A DNA stretch of 64,000 bases, from NCBI RefSeq assembly GCF_010093025.1, contig NZ_CP048114.1, forward strand, positions 4,030,001 to 4,094,000, given 5' to 3'. Origin of the DNA: Edaphobacter sp. 12200R-103 (lineage in GTDB: Bacteria > Acidobacteriota > Terriglobia > Terriglobales > Acidobacteriaceae). The notes under the pieces are model-generated. The model was given only the letters and a program-made list of their open reading frames with translations, had not been told where the DNA came from and did not search any database. The first letter of the stretch is position 1; every line of letters starts with the position of its first letter. Positions 36,429-48,713 of this stretch are shown piece after piece. Both the position numbers and the translations under genes were made by a program.

Positions 36429-39400
36429 GTCTAAATCCACGCTGCCCGCGTGGGCAGCGACTCTTGCTGTAGTCGTTGCCAATATAAAGGTTCCATCGTT
36501 TCAATCCACGCTGCCCGTGTGGGCAGCGACCAACAGCGCGATGCGATTCAGTCGGCGCATAAGCAGTTTCAATCCACGCTGCCCGTGTGGGCAGCGACAG
36601 TGCCGAGATCAACGCGTCGGCATCGCCTTCATAGTTTCAATCCACGCTGCCCGTGTGGGCAGCGACTCAACGATGCGATCGCCGCCTGGACCAAAGCCAA
36701 GTTTCAATCCACGCTGCCCGTGTGGGCAGCGACGCCGACGCTGTCGCATGAGACCGGTATCCCCTTCGTTTCAATCCACGCTGCCCGTGTGGGCAGCGAC
36801 CGCAGGAAGCGGGTAGCTCGGCAGTCAGCAACCTGTTTCAATCCACGCTGCCCGTGTGGGCAGCGACCCTCAGTCTTCAATTCGTTCATCGTGCGCCTCC
36901 AAGGTTTCAATCCACGCTGCCCGTGTGGGCAGCGACCCAACTCTCCTCTTCTGGCCATGGTATCGGGCAGTTTCAATCCACGCTGCCCGTGTGGGCAGCG
37001 ACAATTAGTACAAGGTGACGCTTATAACCAGCGCCGGGTTTCAATCCACGCTGCCCGTGTGGGCAGCGACGCGGTGAGCAATATCGAGTGGACGCAGGAG
37101 ACGTGGTTTCAATCCACGCTGCCCGTGTGGGCAGCGACCCTGAAACAGCCCCGTGACGATCACGGGCGCTTCGTGTTTCAATCCACGCTGCCCGTGTGGG
37201 CAGCGACACTCGCATTGCGCGATGATTTTGACTTGGACCTTGTTTCAATCCACGCTGCCCGTGTGGGCAGCGACGCTTCTGGAGCATGCACAATCCTCCG
37301 CTCGAGAGTGTTTCAATCCACGCTGCCCGTGTGGGCAGCGACCTCTTAATCCGGCCTATCCCAGCTTCGATTCAGAGTTTCAATCCACGCTGCCCGTGTG
37401 GGCAGCGACATGGAAAGCAGAATGCACCCCTCGCTCTCACTGTGTTTCAATCCACGCTGCCCGTGTGGGCAGCGACGCAGAGGAGCACGTCGAACTTCAG
37501 CTTGCGCACATGTTTCAATCCACGCTGCCCGTGTGGGCAGCGACTGCCGGTGAGCGGAATCTGCGGCGGCGACTGGCATGTTTCAATCCACGCTGCCCGT
37601 GTGGGCAGCGACTCGCCGCCCTCGGCGCAATCGCTGGATCCACCGAGTTTCAATCCACGCTGCCCGTGTGGGCAGCGACCAAAACCGCCGACCCGATATC
37701 ATCGTGTGCTGATGTTTCAATCCACGCTGCCCGTGTGGGCAGCGACCGTGTCTGCGGGTCGCTCAAAACGATAGTTACCGGGTTTCAATCCACGCTGCCC
37801 GTGTGGGCAGCGACGTCCAGCAACCAGCACGCTTCAAAATATGCTTCAGTTTCAATCCACGCTGCCCGTGTGGGCAGCGACGCGTCGCTCCGACATCAGA
37901 CAAACCCCTTTTCGGGTGTTTCAATCCACGCTGCCCGTGTGGGCAGCGACTGAGAGGAGGAGCGGTGACGGAAGAGACGACGGTGTTTCAATCCACGCTG
38001 CCCGTGTGGGCAGCGACCCCGCCTTCAATTCGTTCATCGTGCGCCTCCAAAGTTTCAATCCACGCTGCCCGTGTGGGCAGCGACGCGCGTCTTCCCTGTA
38101 ACGGTCACAAAAGCTAAGTTTCAATCCACGCTGCCCGTGTGGGCAGCGACTCTGTTCAACACGCCAACGGTTCACTAGACAAAAGTTTCAATCCACGCTG
38201 CCCATGTGGGCAGCGACAGGATCGTGACGGTTCGCAGAAAGATTGCGAAAAATGTTTCAATCCACGCTGCCCGTGTGGGCAGCGACGCAGGAGCGGGATC
38301 GGAAAAGACCTTGGGCAACGATGTTTCAATCCACGCTGCCCGTGTGGGCAGCGACCTGCTCTTGCGTTGGATGTGAGGTCTATCCCATGTTTCAATCCAC
38401 GCTGCCCGTGTGGGCAGCGACCGTGGTCATTACCTCTAGCCGGTGCGCCAGCATGTTTCAATCCACGCTGCCCGTGTGGGCAGCGACCGCGACCACGCTG
38501 GATGGAGGTAATTGAGTTTGCGTTTCAATCCACGCTGCCCGTGTGGGCAGCGACAGTCGGCCTACTGGTGGTCTGCGATGTATCAGCAGTTTCAATCCAC
38601 GCTGCCCGTGTGGGCAGCGACGGAAACGCAGATGCGTAAGCCGCTCATCACCTTTGTTTCAATCCACGCTGCCCGTGTGGGCAGCGACCCGGACGCTTCT
38701 GCACCCCCTGCTGCTCCCAAGCTGTTTCAATCCACGCTGCCCGTGTGGGCAGCGACGATTCTTGCCGTGGATGCGTTTATGGACTACGAGTTTCAATCCA
38801 CGCTGCCCGTGTGGGCAGCGACGGTGACCTAACATCATCGCCGCCGGCAAAGCTAAGTTTCAATCCACGCTGCCCGTGTGGGCAGCGACACTTGCCGAAA
38901 ATGCGGTCATAGAGAGATATGGCGTTTCAATCCACGCTGCCCGTGTGGGCAGCGACCGAGGCTTGTACGCAGGCAGCAAAGTCTTGCGCAGAGTTTCAAT
39001 CCACGCTGCCCGTGTGGGCAGCGACGATTGGTCGATGACCGCCTTGGAGCTGGAGAGCGTTTCAATCCACGCTGCCCGTGTGGGCAGCGACACTGATCGC
39101 CCTCGTCGATAGACCACACCTGAGGGTTTCAATCCACGCTGCCCGTGTGGGCAGCGACAAGCGCGAAGCTTGGCATGGGAGTAGGAGCTGGGTTTCAATC
39201 CACGCTGCCCGTGTGGGCAGCGACCCAGCCTCAAGGTCATCCTTCCCAACGTCACCATGTTTCAATCCACGCTGCCCGTGTGGGCAGCGACAGTGAATCT
39301 TCTTGTTTCCGCGCCGGGCGATGATGTTTCAATCCACGCTGCCCGTGTGGGCAGCGACCAGTCGATCACTCGCTCTATGAGGTCTATAGGAAGTTTCAAT

Positions 39401-40365
39401 CCACGCTGCCCGTGTGGGCAGCGACCTGCACCGCGTCGATCATGCCCTGTCGTACCAGCGTTTCAATCCACGCTGCCCGTGTGGGCAGCGACGCCGGGCA
39501 CGGAATCTTTCCCTTCGCCGGAATCAGTTTCAATCCACGCTGCCCGTGTGGGCAGCGACGGCCGTCGCGTTCCTGGTCTGGTCGCCGTCCAACAGTTTCA
39601 ATCCACGCTGCCCGTGTGGGCAGCGACGGCCGTCGCGTTCCTGGTCTGGTCGCCGTCCAACAGTTTCAATCCACGCTGCCCGTGTGGGCAGCGACGCTGC
39701 ATATCCGTCTTTAGTGCCATTCTGGGTCAGTTTCAATCCACGCTGCCCGTGTGGGCAGCGACCCTTCAATCCGCGCTGTGCTGATTGAGGACAAGGCGTT
39801 TCAATCCACGCTGCCCGTGTGGGCAGCGACCGCTACACGGCGCACGGGACCAGCGTCATGCTGGAGTTTCAATCCACGCTGCCCGTGTGGGCAGCGACTA
39901 CATGGCACGATCAGCGTACTCGACGATGGTCGTTTCAATCCACGCTGCCCGTGTGGGCAGCGACAGGTCTGCGGCTGAATCCGTGGCGGTAGTGCCTGTG
40001 TTTCAATCCACGCTGCCCGTGTGGGCAGCGACGTGGAGGCCGCAGGGTCGCGTGAAGTTGCATCCGTTTCAATCCACGCTGCCCGTGTGGGCAGCGACGC
40101 TGTATGGACACTCCGCTCCGAATCGCTCGTGAGTTTCAATCCACGCTGCCCGTGTGGGCAGCGACAAGAGCATGACCGCACCGCAGGCTACACTCTTTTG
40201 TTTCAATCCACGCTGCCCGTGTGGGCAGCGACGACCTCGTGCGTCATGTACTTCCACAGTTTGCGGTTTCAATCCACGCTGCCCGTGTGGGCAGCGACTC
40301 GGTAAGGTTCTGCATGGGCTGGCTACGGCTGGGTTTCAATCCACGCTGCCCGTGTGGGCAGCGAC
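36429..40365 (-). CRISPR. Type I-C CRISPR array, 59 repeats / 58 spacers
   Basis: The 33-bp repeat on the plus strand begins GTTTCAATCCACGCTGCCCG and ends TGTGGGCAGCGAC. Its complement ends in GTGGATTGAAAC, the I-C form, so transcription runs on the minus strand from the leader at the right. Spacers are 33-36 bp. The leftmost copy (36429-36461) has three changes, as expected for the leader-distal end; the copy at 38185 has one (CCCATG for CCCGTG). Spacers 39560-39594 and 39628-39662 are identical. Spacers 36868-36903 and 38018-38051 share 28 consecutive bases. The nearly uniform repeats and long array argue for recent activity. Confidence 0.99.
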
Positions 40366-42547: not shown

Positions 42548-43528
42548 TTACACGTACCGCCAGGCGGTAACGCCGCCATCGCAAATCTGGGTGGCATTAG
42601 CGGGCGCGGTGATGCCGGCGGCTTCGTACTCCGCGAAACTTCGTGCGGAGGGAACACTGGCCAGCTTTACGGATTCCAGAACCTTGTGGGCCGGGGCGTT
42701 GCCAAGCTCGTCCTTGTGTTCGAAGAGCCAGAGCCCGCGCACAGCCATTTCGCCACGGGTGGCAGAGCGGTCGTGGTCGAAGAGATTGGTCAGAGCGTTA
42801 AGAAGGGTTCCCATGTCCTGGCGCGTGAACTGGGTTTGTTTCGCAAGAAAAGGCGAGACAAAGCCATGCATGCGATACAGGCCATAGGCCACGCCATGCT
42901 TGCGGCCCATCTGTCCACTGGCAGCTTTTTCTTCACCGCTCTCATCGGTGACGGCTTCACCGCCGGCATCGCCTGGATTGGTGAGGGCTACGCGTGTGAT
43001 CGTATGCGCGATGCTGGTGATGGGATCGACCGACGTGGCAAAGCCAAACTGGACGGGGCCACGCACCTGGCCGCAGTTCCATAGTTTTGTCTGTCCCTTA
43101 GGCTTCTTGCCGGCGTTGATGGCGGCGTCATTTTCCACTTCGGCCTTGCCGGTGGTCATTACGGCGCCGAAGGTGCGAACGTCGAAGTAGTTTTTGCACA
43201 TCCACGCACGCGCCATATCAACGGACTTGCCATCTGGTTCAATGCCAAGATCTCTGTAGGCAGAGCGTTGCTCATTCGCCAGGATGCCGCGCTCCTTCAC
43301 GTAGATGTTGTTCGGCGATTCGAAGTTCCGCGTCAGGCCGACAAAGTTGCGGATCTTGCGCTTGATGGCGACATCGGTCACCAGGCCGTGGCCGGTCTCA
43401 GGATCGACGCGCGGAGCGTTGTCAGCGTCGGGATCGCCGTTGGGGTTGCCGTGACGCACGTCAAAGAGCAGGACGATCTCGTAGCGTTTTTCGAGAACGG
43501 TGGGTTGAGAGAAGTCAGGACGGCTCAT
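42548..43528 (-). CDS. cas7: Type I-C Cascade backbone subunit Cas7 (Csd2)
   Basis: 326 residues. The N-terminal RRM-like strand EIVLLFDVRHGNPNGDPDADN is the hallmark of Csd2/Csh2-type Cas7, and VRTFGAVMTTGKA plus GQVRGPVQFGFATSVDPI follow. Several copies coat the crRNA in Cascade. The start overlaps the cas8c stop by four bases. Confidence 0.97.
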   Translation of the reverse strand: MSRPDFSQPTVLEKRYEIVLLFDVRHGNPNGDPDADNAPRVDPETGHGLVTDVAIKRKIRNFVGLTRNFESPNNIYVKERGILANEQRSAYRDLGIEPDGKSVDMARAWMCKNYFDVRTFGAVMTTGKAEVENDAAINAGKKPKGQTKLWNCGQVRGPVQFGFATSVDPITSIAHTITRVALTNPGDAGGEAVTDESGEEKAASGQMGRKHGVAYGLYRMHGFVSPFLAKQTQFTRQDMGTLLNALTNLFDHDRSATRGEMAVRGLWLFEHKDELGNAPAHKVLESVKLASVPSARSFAEYEAAGITAPANATQICDGGVTAWRYV

Positions 43529-45393
43529 GCAGTGGTCTCCTCGTTCGAATCGGTTGTGGATGTTATAGCTTCTGCGTCATGGAGCGCCAGCGCTTCCCTT
43601 GCGGCTTTAGCGGCCATTGCCTGATCGACGAAGTCTTGTTTTTGGTGGTAGTAGCCAAGCCCGAAGCGGGCTTGATCTGCAAAATCAAATGACTTGCCAA
43701 AGGCACCCCTGGCATCTAGCTTGGACTGGAGTTCGAGCCATAGATCGTTTGCTTTTTTAGCCACGCCAGGAATATCACGCATCGCCTTGCGATAGTGATA
43801 TTGGTACTGGGAAAGCAATTGAGCATAGACGGTCTGTGGGCGGACCGAGGCCATTGCGAAGAAGCGATCGACAAGGGTTCGATTCAGCCCCTGTGATTGA
43901 GCCAGCAGCTGCATGCGTTCTGCTGTCGCAAAGATTCGTCCGAACACATAGGCCCGATCATCGATATCGTGATTCAAGCCCATACGAAGGTCCTCGATGG
44001 AATCATTTTCCCCTCTCCTGTTTCCCGTGCAATCAAATCGGTTGCTAATGAAGTAGAGCTGAAGAAGTGCAGCTCTCTGTCGCCCGACCTTCCAGATACC
44101 TTGTTGCAGGTCTTGTTGCTCGACCCGAATCCTTGTCACGACGGCGGCAAGGAAGGCCGGTGACAGCGGAAGACCAAAGAGTGCTGTCATCCAAAGCTCG
44201 ACCCCAAGGTCGCTTGGCAAGCGTTCCAGTTCGCCTTTAAAGACAAGAGAACGAAGCAGCGCTGACAAAGGCATGGGGACATGCTCAGAGCTACCTCCTG
44301 TCTGGATGGCCCTAAAATAGAGAAGAAGATTTCGAGATACCGCTGCAACCGTATCTACATGAAGCCTTCGCACAGAAGCCCGCCCCTGCGCTCCGGTCAG
44401 GATCAGACAGTAGAAGCCGGAGGTATCCTTCAGTAGAAATTCGCTGCCTTTACGTGGAGAATCGAGTAACTCCCGGATGCTCTTTGGGTCCGTGTTCATG
44501 GCGGATAAGAGGGCAGGCAGCTCGCTCTGTCCTTCCGCCCAGTAAACGGCTGTGGTGTCGCCATTGAGCACCGTGCTCAGTGGTCGTAGCTTGCGTCCGG
44601 ACGGAGTCTCATACTGTGCACGCGTCAGGCGGCGTAGCGCCTCAGTGTAGGCGGTCATGCACCCAGTGCATACGGGAGCGTTGTCGTTGCCGCTCAAGCC
44701 ATACTTCTCGAACGCTCCGGCATTGAAGCTCACCAAAGGGACACCAGAGGTGGAAGCTCCGCGAATCTGGAAGCTGTTGTGCAGCCTTGCGGAAACGCGG
44801 AACTCTCCGCAGACGAGACATTGCATCGGCAAGGAGCCTTCATCCGCCTCCTCGCGTTGTGTTCGCCACCACGTCTGCAGCTCTTCGATGTCAGCAAGCA
44901 TTTCGCCTGCGACCTCAAAGCAGAAGAGGTCGTTGCTGGCGAAGCCGCCTTTTTCGGCAAGATTCTTCGCGCAGGCTTCGCGACTGGTTGCATTAGCCAG
45001 AAAGGTGAATACGGCCTGCAGTTCGGGAACATCTTGCGGCGCGGAGCGCAGCAGCTCCACAAAGGCGGCGTGGCACTGTAGCAGGCGAGGATCTTCGGCC
45101 TCGGCCGGATCGACGGCGAACCCGAGGGCGTACTTGGCGTTGTCGACCAGGAAGTCGGGTTTGACTCCAGAGGAGCGGCCCAGGCGCCGCGGAATCCGCA
45201 TCAGCTTCGCCTGCATCTTCGGCTTCTTCCTGCTGCCCTCAGGAAGTTGTTCCGGAGCGCTGGTGTCGTATGCGTTCAGGAAGCGACCATCCGCATCGAG
45301 AGCGATCTGCCAGCGCACGGCTTTGCTTTCAAAGGCAGGGTCGTCGACAAGTTTTTCGCGTTCGGCCAGCTCGCGCAATGACTGCAGGATCAT
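43525..45393 (-). CDS. cas8c: Type I-C Cascade large subunit Cas8c (Csd1)
   Basis: 622 residues from ATG 45393, which overlaps the cas5 stop (ATGA). It shows Csd1 features: a central zinc-ribbon-like pair of CxxC sites (QCLVCGEFR and CTGCMTAYTE), NAPVCTGC, and a helical C-terminal region with LGYYHQKQDF at the end. The large subunit reads the PAM (TTC in I-C systems) and an internal start inside this gene makes the small subunit Cas11c in other I-C systems; the same may apply here. Confidence 0.96.
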   Translation of the reverse strand: MILQSLRELAEREKLVDDPAFESKAVRWQIALDADGRFLNAYDTSAPEQLPEGSRKKPKMQAKLMRIPRRLGRSSGVKPDFLVDNAKYALGFAVDPAEAEDPRLLQCHAAFVELLRSAPQDVPELQAVFTFLANATSREACAKNLAEKGGFASNDLFCFEVAGEMLADIEELQTWWRTQREEADEGSLPMQCLVCGEFRVSARLHNSFQIRGASTSGVPLVSFNAGAFEKYGLSGNDNAPVCTGCMTAYTEALRRLTRAQYETPSGRKLRPLSTVLNGDTTAVYWAEGQSELPALLSAMNTDPKSIRELLDSPRKGSEFLLKDTSGFYCLILTGAQGRASVRRLHVDTVAAVSRNLLLYFRAIQTGGSSEHVPMPLSALLRSLVFKGELERLPSDLGVELWMTALFGLPLSPAFLAAVVTRIRVEQQDLQQGIWKVGRQRAALLQLYFISNRFDCTGNRRGENDSIEDLRMGLNHDIDDRAYVFGRIFATAERMQLLAQSQGLNRTLVDRFFAMASVRPQTVYAQLLSQYQYHYRKAMRDIPGVAKKANDLWLELQSKLDARGAFGKSFDFADQARFGLGYYHQKQDFVDQAMAAKAAREALALHDAEAITSTTDSNEETTA

Positions 45394-46082
45394 ACGCGTA
45401 ATGCCTCCGGATTTGCGGGCATGGCGTCTTCCCATGCAGGCACATCTACCACGCCCCGGCGCAACTCCGCGGGGAAGAAACGCGGCTGGTTGGCAACCTC
45501 TTTTCCGCGAATCGTTCCGAAGGCGATGTCGTGCAGCATCCAGCCCAGCATGCGCGATTCCTGTTCGAGAGCTCCTGTGCCGTGCCACGGTTCTACGAAG
45601 GCAGGGAACTCGCGACAGCCGAGGTAGGGCTGATAGTGTTGTTGGCCTTTCTGCAGTCTCCGTTCGAACATCTCTTCGAACTTGCGCAGGTTGTCGCCTT
45701 CGCCGGCGCGGGCCGTCATATGGAACCGCGCGACGATGCCATAGTCCACATCACGCAGGGCGACGGTGTTGCGCTGCGCTCGATCCTCGTCGGCGTAGAA
45801 GTCCGGCATAAGTTTGCCTCCACGCGCTTCGGCAAGTGCGTTCTGGGTGGAGAGCCGGGTGTTGACTTCGTTGCGGCGGAAGCGCGCATACCTGACGGGA
45901 TTGAGTAACGCGATCCGTCGAATTTCCCAACGGATGGCAGGCTTCCAGAGGATGGCTTCCAGAACGCCGCGCGCGGCTGACGGCGTGATGAGGTCGTAGC
46001 TGACGCGCTCGGTAGAGAACTCCGGCCGAGTGAAACACGCAAGTGTGCCCTGTATCCGCACAAGGAAATCGTTCGAATGCAT
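45390..46082 (-). CDS. cas5: Type I-C pre-crRNA endonuclease and Cascade subunit Cas5 (Cas5d)
   Basis: 230 residues. The N-terminal strand FLVRIQGTLACFTRPEFSTERVSYDLITPSAARGVL contains the family motif around S-Y-D-x-x-T-P-S-A-A-R; FRRNEVNTRLSTQN and a Gly-rich C-terminal loop follow. In I-C systems Cas5 replaces Cas6: it cuts the repeat to leave the 11-base 5' handle TGGATTGAAAC. ACAGGATCAACGC precedes the ATG. It is the first gene of the cas5-8c-7-4-1-2 block, separated from cas3 by 390 bases that hold regulatory elements. Confidence 0.96.
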   Translation of the reverse strand: MHSNDFLVRIQGTLACFTRPEFSTERVSYDLITPSAARGVLEAILWKPAIRWEIRRIALLNPVRYARFRRNEVNTRLSTQNALAEARGGKLMPDFYADEDRAQRNTVALRDVDYGIVARFHMTARAGEGDNLRKFEEMFERRLQKGQQHYQPYLGCREFPAFVEPWHGTGALEQESRMLGWMLHDIAFGTIRGKEVANQPRFFPAELRRGVVDVPAWEDAMPANPEALRV

Positions 46083-46165
46083 GCGTTGATCCTGTGTTTA
46101 TGTGTGCAGGAGAAATCTAAGTCATTCCCGTGCGAGGGGATAGTGACCAGTTTGGTGCTGAGTTA

Positions 46166-46210
46166 GGGACTTCCCATTTCAGCAATGAGAAGCCCCTTTG
46201 TTCTATTTTT
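46166..46210 (+). terminator. Strong hairpin with T-tract on the plus strand, upstream of cas5
   Basis: A 13-bp stem (46166-46178 with 46184-46196, two G-U pairs when read as the minus-strand RNA) with a 5-base loop is followed on the plus strand by TTTGTTCTATTTTT. It lies 13 bases beyond the stop of the mini-ORF at 46209-46295, but the T-tract is on the opposite strand. In the minus-strand leader of cas5 the same sequence would be a stable RNA hairpin that could limit read-through from the upstream promoter. Confidence 0.6.
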
Positions 46211-46295
46211 AAAGAGCGAACGATAATAATGCGCTCCTCAAGCGCAACACCGCGAGCCAGTCCAGTAGCTTTCGGGTGTAGTAACCGAGGCCCAC
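46209..46295 (-). CDS. Candidate CreT-like mini-ORF (28-residue basic hydrophobic peptide)
   Basis: GTG at 46295 follows AAGGAGGTGG (46302-46311), a near-perfect anti-16S match, at 9 bases' spacing. The peptide is MGLGYYTRKLLDWL followed by AVLRLRSALLSFAL, 28 residues with net positive charge. One amphipathic or membrane-spanning helix is likely, as in many small membrane toxins. It contains AGG and a tandem TTA TTA, rare codons in a GC-rich genome. It lies in the cas3-cas5 gap, downstream of the promoter candidate that overlaps a PAM-flanked match to the guide-like RNA at 46399-46490. No homology is claimed; the call rests on position, ribosome site and peptide character. Confidence 0.5.
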   Translation of the reverse strand: MGLGYYTRKLLDWLAVLRLRSALLSFAL

Positions 46296-46338: not shown

Positions 46339-46371
46339 TTCATCTAATAGATCAATGTGGAAAAAAATCAA
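46339..46371 (-). promoter_or_regulatory. Promoter toward mini-ORF/cas5 overlapped by a PAM-flanked pseudo-protospacer
   Basis: On the minus strand TTGATT (46371-46366), a 16-base spacer and TATTAG (46349-46344) form a moderate sigma-70-type promoter with an expected start near 46337. On the plus strand TTC (46339-46341) directly precedes ATCTAATAGAT (46342-46352), identical to the first 11 bases after the repeat handle at 46421-46431. TTC is the canonical I-C PAM. Cascade carrying that guide would cover the -10 element. Confidence 0.6.
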
Positions 46372-46398
46372 CCTTCGCCAAGCTACACTAGGAGTCGG

Positions 46399-46490
46399 GC
46401 AGTTGCAACATAATTGTCTGTGGATTGAAACATCTAATAGATGCAATGTGGAGTTGGCCGCCCTCTGTAGTCCTAAACCTGCAGAGGGCG
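46399..46490 (+). ncRNA. CreA/CreR-like guide RNA candidate (degenerate repeat plus spacer-like segment)
   Basis: The 33-base segment 46399-46431 ends with GTGGATTGAAAC, all 12 bases identical to the 3' end of the crRNA-sense repeat, including the full 11-base handle left by Cas5. The upstream 21 bases have lost the palindrome. The segment from 46432 starts ATCTAATAGATGCAATGTGG. Its first 11 bases match the TTC-flanked site at 46342; further identity resumes only after a one-base shift, so base-pairing would stop after the seed. Partial pairing is what allows Cascade to bind without triggering Cas3. A 9-bp hairpin (46459-46490) could form the 3' end. CATAAT (46409-46414) is a possible -10 with a start at the handle, but no good -35 is seen. 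Confidence 0.55.
46459..46490. terminator. Hairpin spanning the cas3 stop codon
   Basis: A perfect 9-bp stem (46459-46467 with 46482-46490) with a 14-base loop that contains the cas3 stop. It has no T-run on either strand. It may end both the cas3 message and the convergent guide-like RNA, or protect their 3' ends. Confidence 0.5.
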
Positions 46491-48713
46491 CAGCATCACG
46501 TCAGACTCGTGGCTTGCGAATCCAAATCTCTCCTCATAGGGAGACGCATCTCCCTCACGGACACACCACAACGAAGCATCCGCTTCATCGCCCTGCATGA
46601 CGGGTTCGAGCCATCCGGAGTCAAAGAGTGCACTGAATATCGTTTTGCTGATGCCAACCGTGTAGCGTTGCAATGCACGGAAGCGTTCCCGGCTGGGGCC
46701 CCCGTGACGCAGCTCCCGGACCAGTCGAGGCGCATCGCCATACGGAGCCACCACCGAGATATGGATCTCTTCGATCATCCGGAAGTTCTTCGCGACCTCC
46801 TCGAAGTCGAACTCCTCCTCTGACGTACGAATACCTTTGCGGTCCGTGTCCAACCTTCTCAAAACCTTTCCCGCGTACTCGGGGAAGAGCATCGGGTCGT
46901 GCAGATCAGGTAGTCCGCGGACAAAATATTCTGAGAGAGCGACCTCCAGACCGAGTTGCGGGGTACCTTTCGGCGCTCTGGATTCTAAGATCTCTTCATC
47001 TGTATTGCTCACCTTTCCCGCTCGATAGACGACAAAGCGTCCAGGATGCGGCAGCTTCATCGAGCGGTTGCATCGTCCGGCCGCCTGCGCCAAAGTCTCA
47101 AGACCGGCCAGCGCGCGGTAGACCACCGGGAAGTCGATGTCAACTCCGGCCTCAATGAGCTGGGTCGCAACGATGGTGCAAGGCAGTCCGGCATCCAGCC
47201 TCTGTCTGGCCTCGCGCAGCACCTGAGAGCGATGGGTCGCGCACATGGCGGCTGAGAGATGCAGGCACTCCGATCCCAGCATCTCCGCGAGCAAACGAGC
47301 GTCCCTGCGGCTGTGGGTGATCACCAGGGCGCTACGCTGTTTCCGCACGTCGTCCACAAGCACGGCGGGATCGAGCGGGATTTGCAGGTCGCCGAGAATC
47401 TCCAGTGTGAAGCGATCACGCACGGCGTCGAAAAGAGAGGCGGGGTTCGGGATAATCTCCTTCATGGAAACGCAGAGCTCAGGCGGCAAGACCGAGCGGC
47501 GGCGTCTGCCGGCGACGCCAGCCAGCAGAGGCTGTGTCGCGGTGCCATGGACGACGGTGACATGGAAATCTTCTACCAGCCGCTTCAACACGGCATGGAT
47601 CGGCTCCAGGAGATCGGCGGGAAACGTCTGTACTTCATCGAGCAGGATCACGCTGTTGGCGACGCGATGCAGCTTGCGGCAATCGCGTTTGTGCGCGGCG
47701 TGCAGACTCTCCAGTAGCTGCACGCTAGTGGTGACGATCACTGGAGCATCCCAGTTCTCGCAGGCCTGCCGGTTACGGTCGGTATCGAGAAGCGGGCTGA
47801 TGTTGCTGTGATGCTCAATCACATTCTCCGCACCAAGAGCCTCGCGATAAACATCGGCTGTTTGCTCCAGGATAGAGGTGAAAGGTGCAACCACGATGAC
47901 GCGCTTCATACCGTGACGCTCCGCATGATGCAGGGCGAAGGCAAGTCCGCTGAGCGTCTTCCCGCCGCCCGTGGGAACTGTCATCGTGAAGTGCCCGGGA
48001 CTGTTATCAGCAGCTTGAACGCATGCCTCAAATACATTCCGGCGTAATGTCGCCAGGCGCTGCTCTTTTTCTGTAATTGCCGTGGCCTGCGCCGTTTCAA
48101 TCTTCGCGAAGCAGAATGCATCGAGACTCTTGTGTAATACTGCAATGTCGTCGTAGTTGGTTGTTCGCGGCGCACCAATAGCCCACTCTTCAGTGTCCAG
48201 TAGATCTGCATCAACCAGGGCTGAAAACAGAATGCGAACGGCAAGCGCAGACGGAGTTCCCGTTAGCGATGGTGTTTGCTGCTCGAGTTCTGCCGGGAGT
48301 CCGCCGCCTCGGGAAGCCTGGAGAAGTGGGGAGCCCGATACCTCTATGGTGTCCAGCCAACGCCCAGATTTGAGCGCGCCATGATGCGCAGCAATGACAA
48401 GCGCAAGAATCCGGCCACCGATGTTATCGGGCAGCCTCTGCAACGCGAGAGCCGCGCCCGCAGCGGAATGTGGCACGCTCCTCACATGTGGAGTTGAAGA
48501 AGCCTCGTTAGAAATCTCAGAATCATGCCGGATGTACTGTTGAAAGGCTGGATTGAATTTTCCGATATCGTGCCACAGCCCGGCTACCCTGGCAAGATCT
48601 GCGAGTTGCCTCGGAGCAAATGATTCTGCTAGAGACGCAACTCGGCTCAGATGCTCTGATAGTTCTTGCCACGGACGTGCGTCCCCCTCCTTTCTGCTGT
48701 GGGCATAGATCAT
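46473..48713 (-). CDS. cas3: CRISPR-associated helicase/nuclease Cas3 (type I-C, HD and helicase fused)
   Basis: 746 residues. HD nuclease domain at the N-terminus (H5, H48-D49 in GLWHDIGKF, H110-H111 in AAHHGAL). SF2 helicase follows with Walker A VPTGGGKT (246-253), a DEVQ box (359-362) in the DEVH position, TATQPLL, and motif VI QAAGRCNRS. After Cascade forms an R-loop, Cas3 nicks and degrades the target. It is the first cas gene, separated from cas5 by 390 bases; other I-C loci often have a tighter arrangement. No strong ribosome site precedes 48713. Confidence 0.97.
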   Translation of the reverse strand: MIYAHSRKEGDARPWQELSEHLSRVASLAESFAPRQLADLARVAGLWHDIGKFNPAFQQYIRHDSEISNEASSTPHVRSVPHSAAGAALALQRLPDNIGGRILALVIAAHHGALKSGRWLDTIEVSGSPLLQASRGGGLPAELEQQTPSLTGTPSALAVRILFSALVDADLLDTEEWAIGAPRTTNYDDIAVLHKSLDAFCFAKIETAQATAITEKEQRLATLRRNVFEACVQAADNSPGHFTMTVPTGGGKTLSGLAFALHHAERHGMKRVIVVAPFTSILEQTADVYREALGAENVIEHHSNISPLLDTDRNRQACENWDAPVIVTTSVQLLESLHAAHKRDCRKLHRVANSVILLDEVQTFPADLLEPIHAVLKRLVEDFHVTVVHGTATQPLLAGVAGRRRRSVLPPELCVSMKEIIPNPASLFDAVRDRFTLEILGDLQIPLDPAVLVDDVRKQRSALVITHSRRDARLLAEMLGSECLHLSAAMCATHRSQVLREARQRLDAGLPCTIVATQLIEAGVDIDFPVVYRALAGLETLAQAAGRCNRSMKLPHPGRFVVYRAGKVSNTDEEILESRAPKGTPQLGLEVALSEYFVRGLPDLHDPMLFPEYAGKVLRRLDTDRKGIRTSEEEFDFEEVAKNFRMIEEIHISVVAPYGDAPRLVRELRHGGPSRERFRALQRYTVGISKTIFSALFDSGWLEPVMQGDEADASLWCVREGDASPYEERFGFASHESDVMLRPLQV

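Follow-up and report, generated by a model that had tools for sequence, protein, structure and literature searches.

The window, as the whole 64-kb stretch of DNA analysed here is called, holds a type I-C CRISPR-Cas locus on its minus strand, with the cas3, cas5c, cas8c, cas7 and cas4 genes and a CRISPR array. To judge from its sequence, the gap between cas3 and cas5 in this locus, 390 nt long, probably carries a type I-C CreTA-like module, in which a guide would direct Cascade to the promoter of a mini-ORF with a strong Shine-Dalgarno (SD) sequence. A first-pass annotation had assigned to this gap a type I-C CreA/CreR-like guide with a seed-directed promoter target, and comparison with other loci gives that interpretation strong support: the handle, the adjacent TTC and the seed relation recur in unrelated I-C loci with differing sequences. 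It is these related loci that decide the case for the guide element, and the recurrence of guide-target pairs in many unrelated bacteria suggests that such guides may serve as gene switches, not as cutters.

Layout of the gap between cas3 and cas5

The elements of the locus are listed below, with positions counted along the window.

46473..48713, minus strand: cas3 (Cas3 HD domain TIGR01596 over the cut-off, helicase core TIGR01587 just below it)
46460..46489, no strand assigned: hairpin GCCCTCTG..CAGAGGGC at the end of the guide gene, over the cas3 stop (-26.1 kcal/mol, z -3.7)
46432..46459, plus strand: spacer-like guide, its first 11 nt equal to the target
46396..46431, plus strand: degenerate repeat (psiR) of the guide gene, with a hairpin at 46396-46420 and an intact 11-nt handle UGGAUUGAAAC at 46421-46431
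46344..46371, minus strand: candidate promoter TTGATT-N16-TATTAG, overlapping the target (8 of 12 consensus bases)
46339..46352, plus strand: target, consisting of the TTC PAM (46339-46341) and the seed protospacer (46342-46352); sole perfect site in the genome
46302..46311, minus strand: strong SD sequence AAGGAGGTGG of the mini-ORF
46209..46295, minus strand: creT-like mini-ORF with GTG start, MGLGYYTRKLLDWLAVLRLRSALLSFAL; leader and start region resemble those of locus L138
46221..46246, minus strand: terminator-like stem-loop followed by TTATTAT, within the mini-ORF
46163..46199, minus strand: long hairpin 3' of the mini-ORF (66-nt piece, -22.3 kcal/mol, z -4.5)
46138..46158, minus strand: cas5-proximal leader, kept in a relative without the element (alignment with G285)
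45390..46082, minus strand: cas5c (TIGR01876)
43525..45450, minus strand: cas8c, start not settled (TIGR01863)
42548..43528, minus strand: cas7 (TIGR02589)
36430..40345, minus strand: CRISPR array, crRNA-sense repeat GTCGCTGCCCACACGGGCAGCGTGGATTGAAAC, 58 exact handles

The bases and coordinates given earlier for the handle, the seed and the TTC all proved correct. In the whole 4.55-Mb genome the 12-mer handle GTGGATTGAAAC has 58 copies in the array, on the minus strand, and a single exact copy outside it, at 46420-46431 of the plus strand, where it is followed by ATCTAATAGATGCAATGTGGAGTTGGCC. The first-pass estimate that such a copy would arise by chance in about 5 of 100,000 cases is sound for uniform bases (2 x 390 / 4^12). 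Compared with the array repeat, psiR is equal at 11 of 11 handle bases and at 5 of the 21 bases upstream, and so has the degenerate extra-array repeat with intact 5' handle that is a trait of Cre-type guides. A 10-bp stem rich in G-U pairs abuts the 11-nt handle in the 36-nt and 101-nt folds of psiR; this stem is weak alone (z -1.4 for the 36-nt fold), and the 33-nt fold gave another stem, no better than shuffles. No convincing second repeat follows the guide (best 11/22). Under strict criteria the gap yielded no sigma-70 promoter, and none was identified for the guide gene. Guide gene and cas3 converge on the hairpin at 46460..46489, which is probably the 3' end or terminator between them; because a T run is absent, its role as terminator is one that we infer. 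The window array contains repeated or near-repeated spacers (36875-36949 and 38023-38097; 39566-39640 and 39634-39708).

The plus strand at 46339-46361 reads TTCATCTAATAGATCAATGTGGA. Here the first 11 guide bases are identical to 46342-46352, directly beside TTC (11/11), and within the window ATCTAATAGAT occurs exactly at 46342 and 46432 only. The pattern TTCATCTANTAGAT, made of TTC and the seed with position 6 left free, has one perfect site in the genome, at 46339, and six more with one mismatch. The match was previously said to stop at position 12; in fact it resumes after one inserted G and extends to 20 nt in all. The guide ATCTAATAGATgCAATGTGGA and the target ATCTAATAGAT-CAATGTGGA thus agree over about 20 nt with an extra base in the guide at position 12, and are therefore two copies of one sequence of about 20 nt. 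Another trait of Cre-type guides, a match of positions 1-5 and 7-11 beside a functional PAM near a promoter without full complementarity, is seen here as 11/11 followed by an indel. The 11-mer is a palindrome save for position 6, so that the minus strand of the target fits it too, next to TTG.

The candidate promoter at the target is one of five sites with a score of 8/12 listed for the stretch. Below the target, the minus strand carries AAGGAGGTGG, a GTG start, a 28-codon ORF, an internal T-tailed stem and a long hairpin, after which come about 80 nt; they include the cas5 leader, which G285, a relative, also has. The position of the terminator-like stem inside the mini-ORF is a point against the CreTA-like reading.

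In the mechanism proposed, the plus strand from about 46395 to 46489 would be transcribed as a crRNA-like RNA, and Cas5c would cut its degenerate repeat at the hairpin base, leaving the 11-nt handle on the guide. The I-C Cascade carrying this guide would bind from 46342 onward beside TTC through positions 1-11; since pairing would break off at position 12, where the one-base indel lies, Cas3 should not gain licence to cleave. The bound complex would cover the minus-strand promoter (46371-46344) and silence the strong-SD mini-ORF (46295-46209), which would be released if Cascade were lost or blocked. Once released, the mini-ORF would probably do harm, whether through its RNA or through an amphipathic peptide of 28 aa, and the cell would therefore depend on its CRISPR system.

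Lone handles in related type I-C loci

Relatives of Cas5c were collected from 100 relatives of the genome, from GTDB genomes (best 80 loci), from viral contigs (10 loci) and from the family. The discovery set comprised 118 distinct loci after removal of 14 duplicates and of L043, in which no cas5 was found; in 109 of them cas3 lies upstream on the same strand, and the nine distinct loci without upstream cas3 were left out. Under a strict rule (at most two mismatches and the end TGAAAC), 18 of the 30 cas3-cas5 gaps of at least 150 nt in these 109 loci contain a lone handle, against none of the 79 shorter gaps; the rate in shuffled gaps was 0.008 per gap. If handle variants are allowed, six further gaps carry one (L050, L052, L060, L069, L101 and L113, included after the strict rule had been applied), and in two of these the variant equals the deviant handle of the locus's own array (GTGGATTGAAAT in L060 and GTGGATCGAAAC in L113). 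Locus L172 passes the strict rule, and its guide joined the guide set together with the variant-handle rows.

Lone handles with at most one mismatch number 26 in 1.58 Mb of locus sequence; 17 of them fall in the cas3-cas5 gap, and the remaining nine lie elsewhere or in loci without upstream cas3. The set of 26 guides used below includes L081 and L125, both without upstream cas3, the repeat of L125 looking undegenerate. In 16 of 19 lone repeats (not in L032, L072 and L122) the base before the handle is paired upstream, compared with fractions of 0.40 to 0.65 in shuffles. Where an array could be read (13 lone repeats), 9 to 11 of the last 11 bases agree with it, and 5 to 13 of the 21 bases before them.

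Six long gaps are without any handle (L107, L112, L110, L117, L163 and L164). The gap of L117 has a 487-aa ORF, ATPase-like by eye, while nothing was recognised in those of L163 (equal to L137) and L164. Type II toxin-antitoxin genes were observed at the same site, namely Phd and PIN in L107, PIN with a Phd-like ORF (by eye) in L112, a Phd gene in L110, and HicA in L101, which also has a handle variant; the cas3-cas5 gap appears to be a preferred site of addiction genes. Below the lone guide, L075 and L050 carry cargo ORFs of 233 and 102 codons, respectively, and no Pfam family was found for the cargo ORFs of L075, L050, L172 and L080 or for the ORF beside HicA in L101.

A few further loci were noted in this survey. 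L124, whose contig is grouped with the viral ones and may be a virus or a misplaced piece of host DNA, has a lone handle and a 10/11 seed match in its I-C gap. L081 (Neisseria sp.) has two repeats, the second recognised by eye, and one short spacer about 62 nt upstream of cas5. The genome G020 has two I-C loci (contigs C167 and C218), with the guide element only on C167, and in L163 (genome G353) the 188-nt gap without a handle accompanies one TGA in the frame of cas5.

Seed, PAM and mismatch pattern

Among the 17 first cases are 10 guides whose own gap has a site beside TTC that agrees at 9 or 10 of the ten seed positions. When guides and gaps were swapped among these loci, none of the 272 combinations reached 9/10 beside TTC, and shuffled guides did so in 0.3%. 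TTC, the known PAM of type I-C systems, is backed as the PAM of the window's system by its excess over all other trinucleotides beside the seed matches of the 17 cases, any other giving at most one case at 9/10. In the full set of 26 lone guides, there are 15 for which the own gap offers a site beside TTC with at least 9 of 11 positions matched, compared with 3 of 650 swapped pairs; for the other 11 no good TTC target was found in their own gap. A search of the rest of the locus for targets at 9/10 beside TTC gave none for L047, L075, L081, L097, L104, L122 and L125. L070 has a second TTC-seed site 7.7 kb away.

The mismatches of the 15 pairs are distributed unevenly. They are absent from positions 1-5 (0/75) and rare at positions 7-11 (3/75), and affect position 6 in 7 of 15 and position 12 in 10 of 15 pairs. 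Further on, where positions from 12 onward had played no part in choosing the pairs, positions 13-17 are mismatched at 16/75, position 18 in 11 of 15 and positions 19-24 at 75/86. When the window and the two palindromic guides are set aside, leaving 12 pairs, the counts are 7/12 for position 6, 9/12 for position 12, 12/60 for positions 13-17 and 9/12 for position 18; the window guide itself keeps positions 1-11 and is then cut off by the indel. A Cascade that reads bases in fives and passes over each sixth would be expected to leave such a pattern. For haloarchaeal I-B CreTA, the parts of PMC8501985 available to us describe a CreA seed of positions 1-5 plus 7-11 beside 5'-TTC, with positions 6 and 12 unread. 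An I-F CreA needs positions 13-17, according to a passage of PMC10097628.

A second set was drawn from the orders of two element-bearing genomes, those of L099 and L088 (338 and 340 genomes), and is therefore not a random sample; the Cas5c model gave 49 loci, with 30 of 37 matches in one order becoming loci and one of them, L178, already present in the first set. Four of the 49 were left out, two short-gap loci because they overlap the discovery set and two loci because they have no cas3. By the same rule, a lone handle is present in 8 of 15 long gaps and in none of 30 short ones, and seven of the eight guides match their gap at 9 or more of 11 positions beside TTC, guide swaps reaching at most 8. 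In these seven pairs both position 6 and position 12 are mismatched in every case (7/7 each); positions 13-17 are mismatched at 13/35 and position 18 in 4 of 7, so that the pattern past position 12 is not clearly repeated.

Candidate repressed genes, rival explanations and known systems

A DNA search with the window gap in 399 genomes of the class gave one meaningful relative, G285; other matches (E 0.001-1) were short and were left out. G285 is also the nearest relative, with 90% identity in Cas5 and 79% in Cas3. Its gap is an empty site of only 92 nt that lacks the element and keeps the cas5 leader, and cas5 therefore manages without the insert there. Conservation in related loci, which the first-pass annotation had named as a check, gave a divided answer: the nearest relative is without the whole element, while other loci keep the handle-seed relation with different bases. 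Among the eight loci with Cas5 identity above 60%, the element is present in three (the window, L138 and L139) and absent in five (G285, L159, L160, L163 and L164).

The gaps of L138 and L139 measure 412 and 428 nt and contain the handle, a strong SD sequence and 25-codon ORFs, MGLLRAFVIASWLAWMTKTERSEGL and MGFLCIFVIASWLAGMTKNKRSEGL respectively; an inverted repeat, recognised by eye, lies below the mini-ORF, and cas5 is preceded by a promoter-like site. With L138 the window has CTAAGGAGGTG..TA.AG.TGGGCCT in common (score 33, best of 500 shuffles 28), a likeness restricted to the leader and start of the mini-ORF; its likeness to L139 is not significant, 97 of 500 shuffles being as good. Substitutions between the ORFs of L138 and L139 number 5, 2 and 3 at codon positions 1, 2 and 3 (by eye), a spread that does not look like selection for a peptide.

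L138 and L139 have guides of 16 and 18 nt, respectively, each a perfect palindrome with GAA after it, and the other strand of the guide gene therefore reads TTC and then the guide. The two sequences are not the same, so both palindrome and PAM have persisted through changes of base. In L139 a promoter-like TTGACA-N17-TACAGT starts right beside the palindromic guide. Among the rest of the 26 guides there is no comparable palindrome save the near-palindrome of 11 in the window, which would fit a separation of guide and operator from a palindromic form.

In 12 loci with at least 150 nt between target and cas5, a strong-SD hydrophobic mini-ORF lies below the target in four (expected 0.09, antisense 0), and a membrane-type ORF also in four (expected 0.61, antisense 1), with mini-ORF thresholds that were fixed after the ORFs had been inspected. 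As regards the CreTA trait of a target promoter driving a strongly translated gene with a stem-loop, the window has the SD sequence, the GTG start, the mini-ORF and the hairpins, and a promoter of 8/12 only. For a plain tRNA trap after the haloarchaeal CreT, the mini-ORF does have rare TTA TTA and AGG codons, but they come late in the ORF; across 36 long ORFs from the window, TTA accounts for 3.6 codons per thousand. As regards the CreR trait of a target in the promoter of a cas gene, about 260 nt, including the mini-ORF, separate the window target from cas5, read-through being possible. Some other loci have the target beside cas5, at -20 (L072), -22 (L060) and -97 (L032), that of L032 just upstream of a TTGACA-N18-TATACA site, and by their position these targets look CreR-like. 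Because the layout of target and cas5 differs among loci, the class is read as mixed and the window as CreTA-like; for the window, the evidence favours the mini-ORF over cas5 as the repressed gene.

Direct repression of cas5 is the main rival and is considered unlikely. According to it, the cas5-8c-7-4-1-2 transcript is what guide and target chiefly control, Cascade thereby limiting its own level, and the mini-ORF is a harmless leader peptide. It gains from the loci in which the target adjoins cas5 (L072, L060 and L032) and from the description of CreR for other subtypes in passages of PMC12737573 and PMC13131331. Against it stand the distance of the window target from cas5, with a strong-SD ORF and two hairpins intervening, the retention of the cas5-proximal leader in the relative without the element, and the promoter-like site between mini-ORF and cas5 in L138 and L139.

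Lone degenerate repeats can also result from decay of CRISPR arrays, and 11 of the 26 lone guides have no target found in their own gap. That the element is a functionless remnant of such an array, or a chance resemblance, is nevertheless very improbable, given handles in 18 of 30 long gaps against a chance rate of 0.008 per gap, the rarity with which swapped guides fit, and the recurrence of the handle, seed and position 6/12 results in the second set; moreover, positions 13-17, which lay outside the selection, match at 59/75, and positions 12 and 18 mostly mismatch. Still less credible is a Racr-like decoy left by a mobile element, that is, a solitary repeat inhibiting Cascade by mimicry. 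Racrs are solitary repeat units, and a prophage I-C Racr exists, as stated in the part of PMC10651486 available to us, but the cas3-cas5 position of the window element speaks against this, as does its nearby PAM-flanked match, for which a decoy would have no use.

Beyond the CreTA-like reading of the window, a wider one is put forward tentatively, with slightly less than even confidence. The I-C systems of many phyla may reserve the cas3-cas5 site for Cascade-controlled addiction or feedback modules, whose guides would be tuned to the bases that are read (1-5, 7-11 and often 13-17) and would end before cleavage length. The ancestral form in the window's family might have been a palindromic guide serving as its own operator, one strand being the guide and the other being bound by Cascade with that guide. 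The repressed genes would be tiny strong-SD or membrane-type peptides, so that Cascade would replace the antisense RNA of a type I toxin-antitoxin pair. If such modules work as proposed, RNA-guided repression by Cascade would extend to I-C, a compact subtype of type I in which Cas5c processes the repeat and Cas6 is absent, and this would account for the way I-C systems withstand loss or restrain themselves. From the mismatches at positions 6 and 12 one could read off, in nature, how Cascade pairs when it regulates and does not cut, and a gap of at least 150 nt with a lone handle and TTC with seed could serve as a search rule for further cases. Palindromic guides would be a one-piece regulator, which does not appear in the literature passages on Cre guides that we consulted. 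Shmakov and co-workers are said to have predicted, in 2023, CRISPR-derived RNA regulatory elements widely in type I systems, as standalone repeats with a partial match to promoters of cas or cargo genes. By that account, these resemble the window element in both features, and that work may already list I-C cases.

In the passages available to us, Cre guides are described for I-B, I-E, I-F and V-A (PMC8501985, PMC10097628, PMC13131331). Our literature search, which did not reach the primary papers Liu 2023 (CreR), Shmakov 2023 and Shu 2025, recognised no I-C CreTA or CreR; Liu or Shmakov could list I-C elements. Like CreR, as presented in parts of PMC12737573 and PMC13131331, the window element would be a crRNA-like RNA that matches, to a limited extent, a promoter close by in the cas locus; CreR is named there for I-B, I-E and V-A (PMC13131331), whereas the target promoter of the window appears to drive the mini-ORF and not cas5 directly.

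The I-F CreTA of Acinetobacter, as far as it is described in the passages of PMC10097628 consulted, shares with the window the location between cas3 and the next cas gene, a degenerate repeat with a hairpin, a partial guide match beside a PAM, an SD sequence and mini-ORF below the target, divergent from creA, and the existence of an insert-free strain. It has two psiR, a 20-nt psiS paired at 17 bases and a 33-bp mini-ORF and was tested experimentally, while the window element belongs to I-C, has Cas5c as the expected processing enzyme, one recognised psiR and a 28-codon ORF, and was analysed here by sequence. The CreT of H. hispanica, in the excerpts of PMC8501985 at hand, has a strong SD sequence, a start codon, rare codons and a stem-loop, as the window does, and a creA with one psiR and a terminator is known there. 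Haloarchaeal CreTA differs in belonging to I-B, in using Cas6 and in having tandem AGA or AUA codons early in the ORF (same excerpts), in place of which the window ORF has TTA TTA, placed late.
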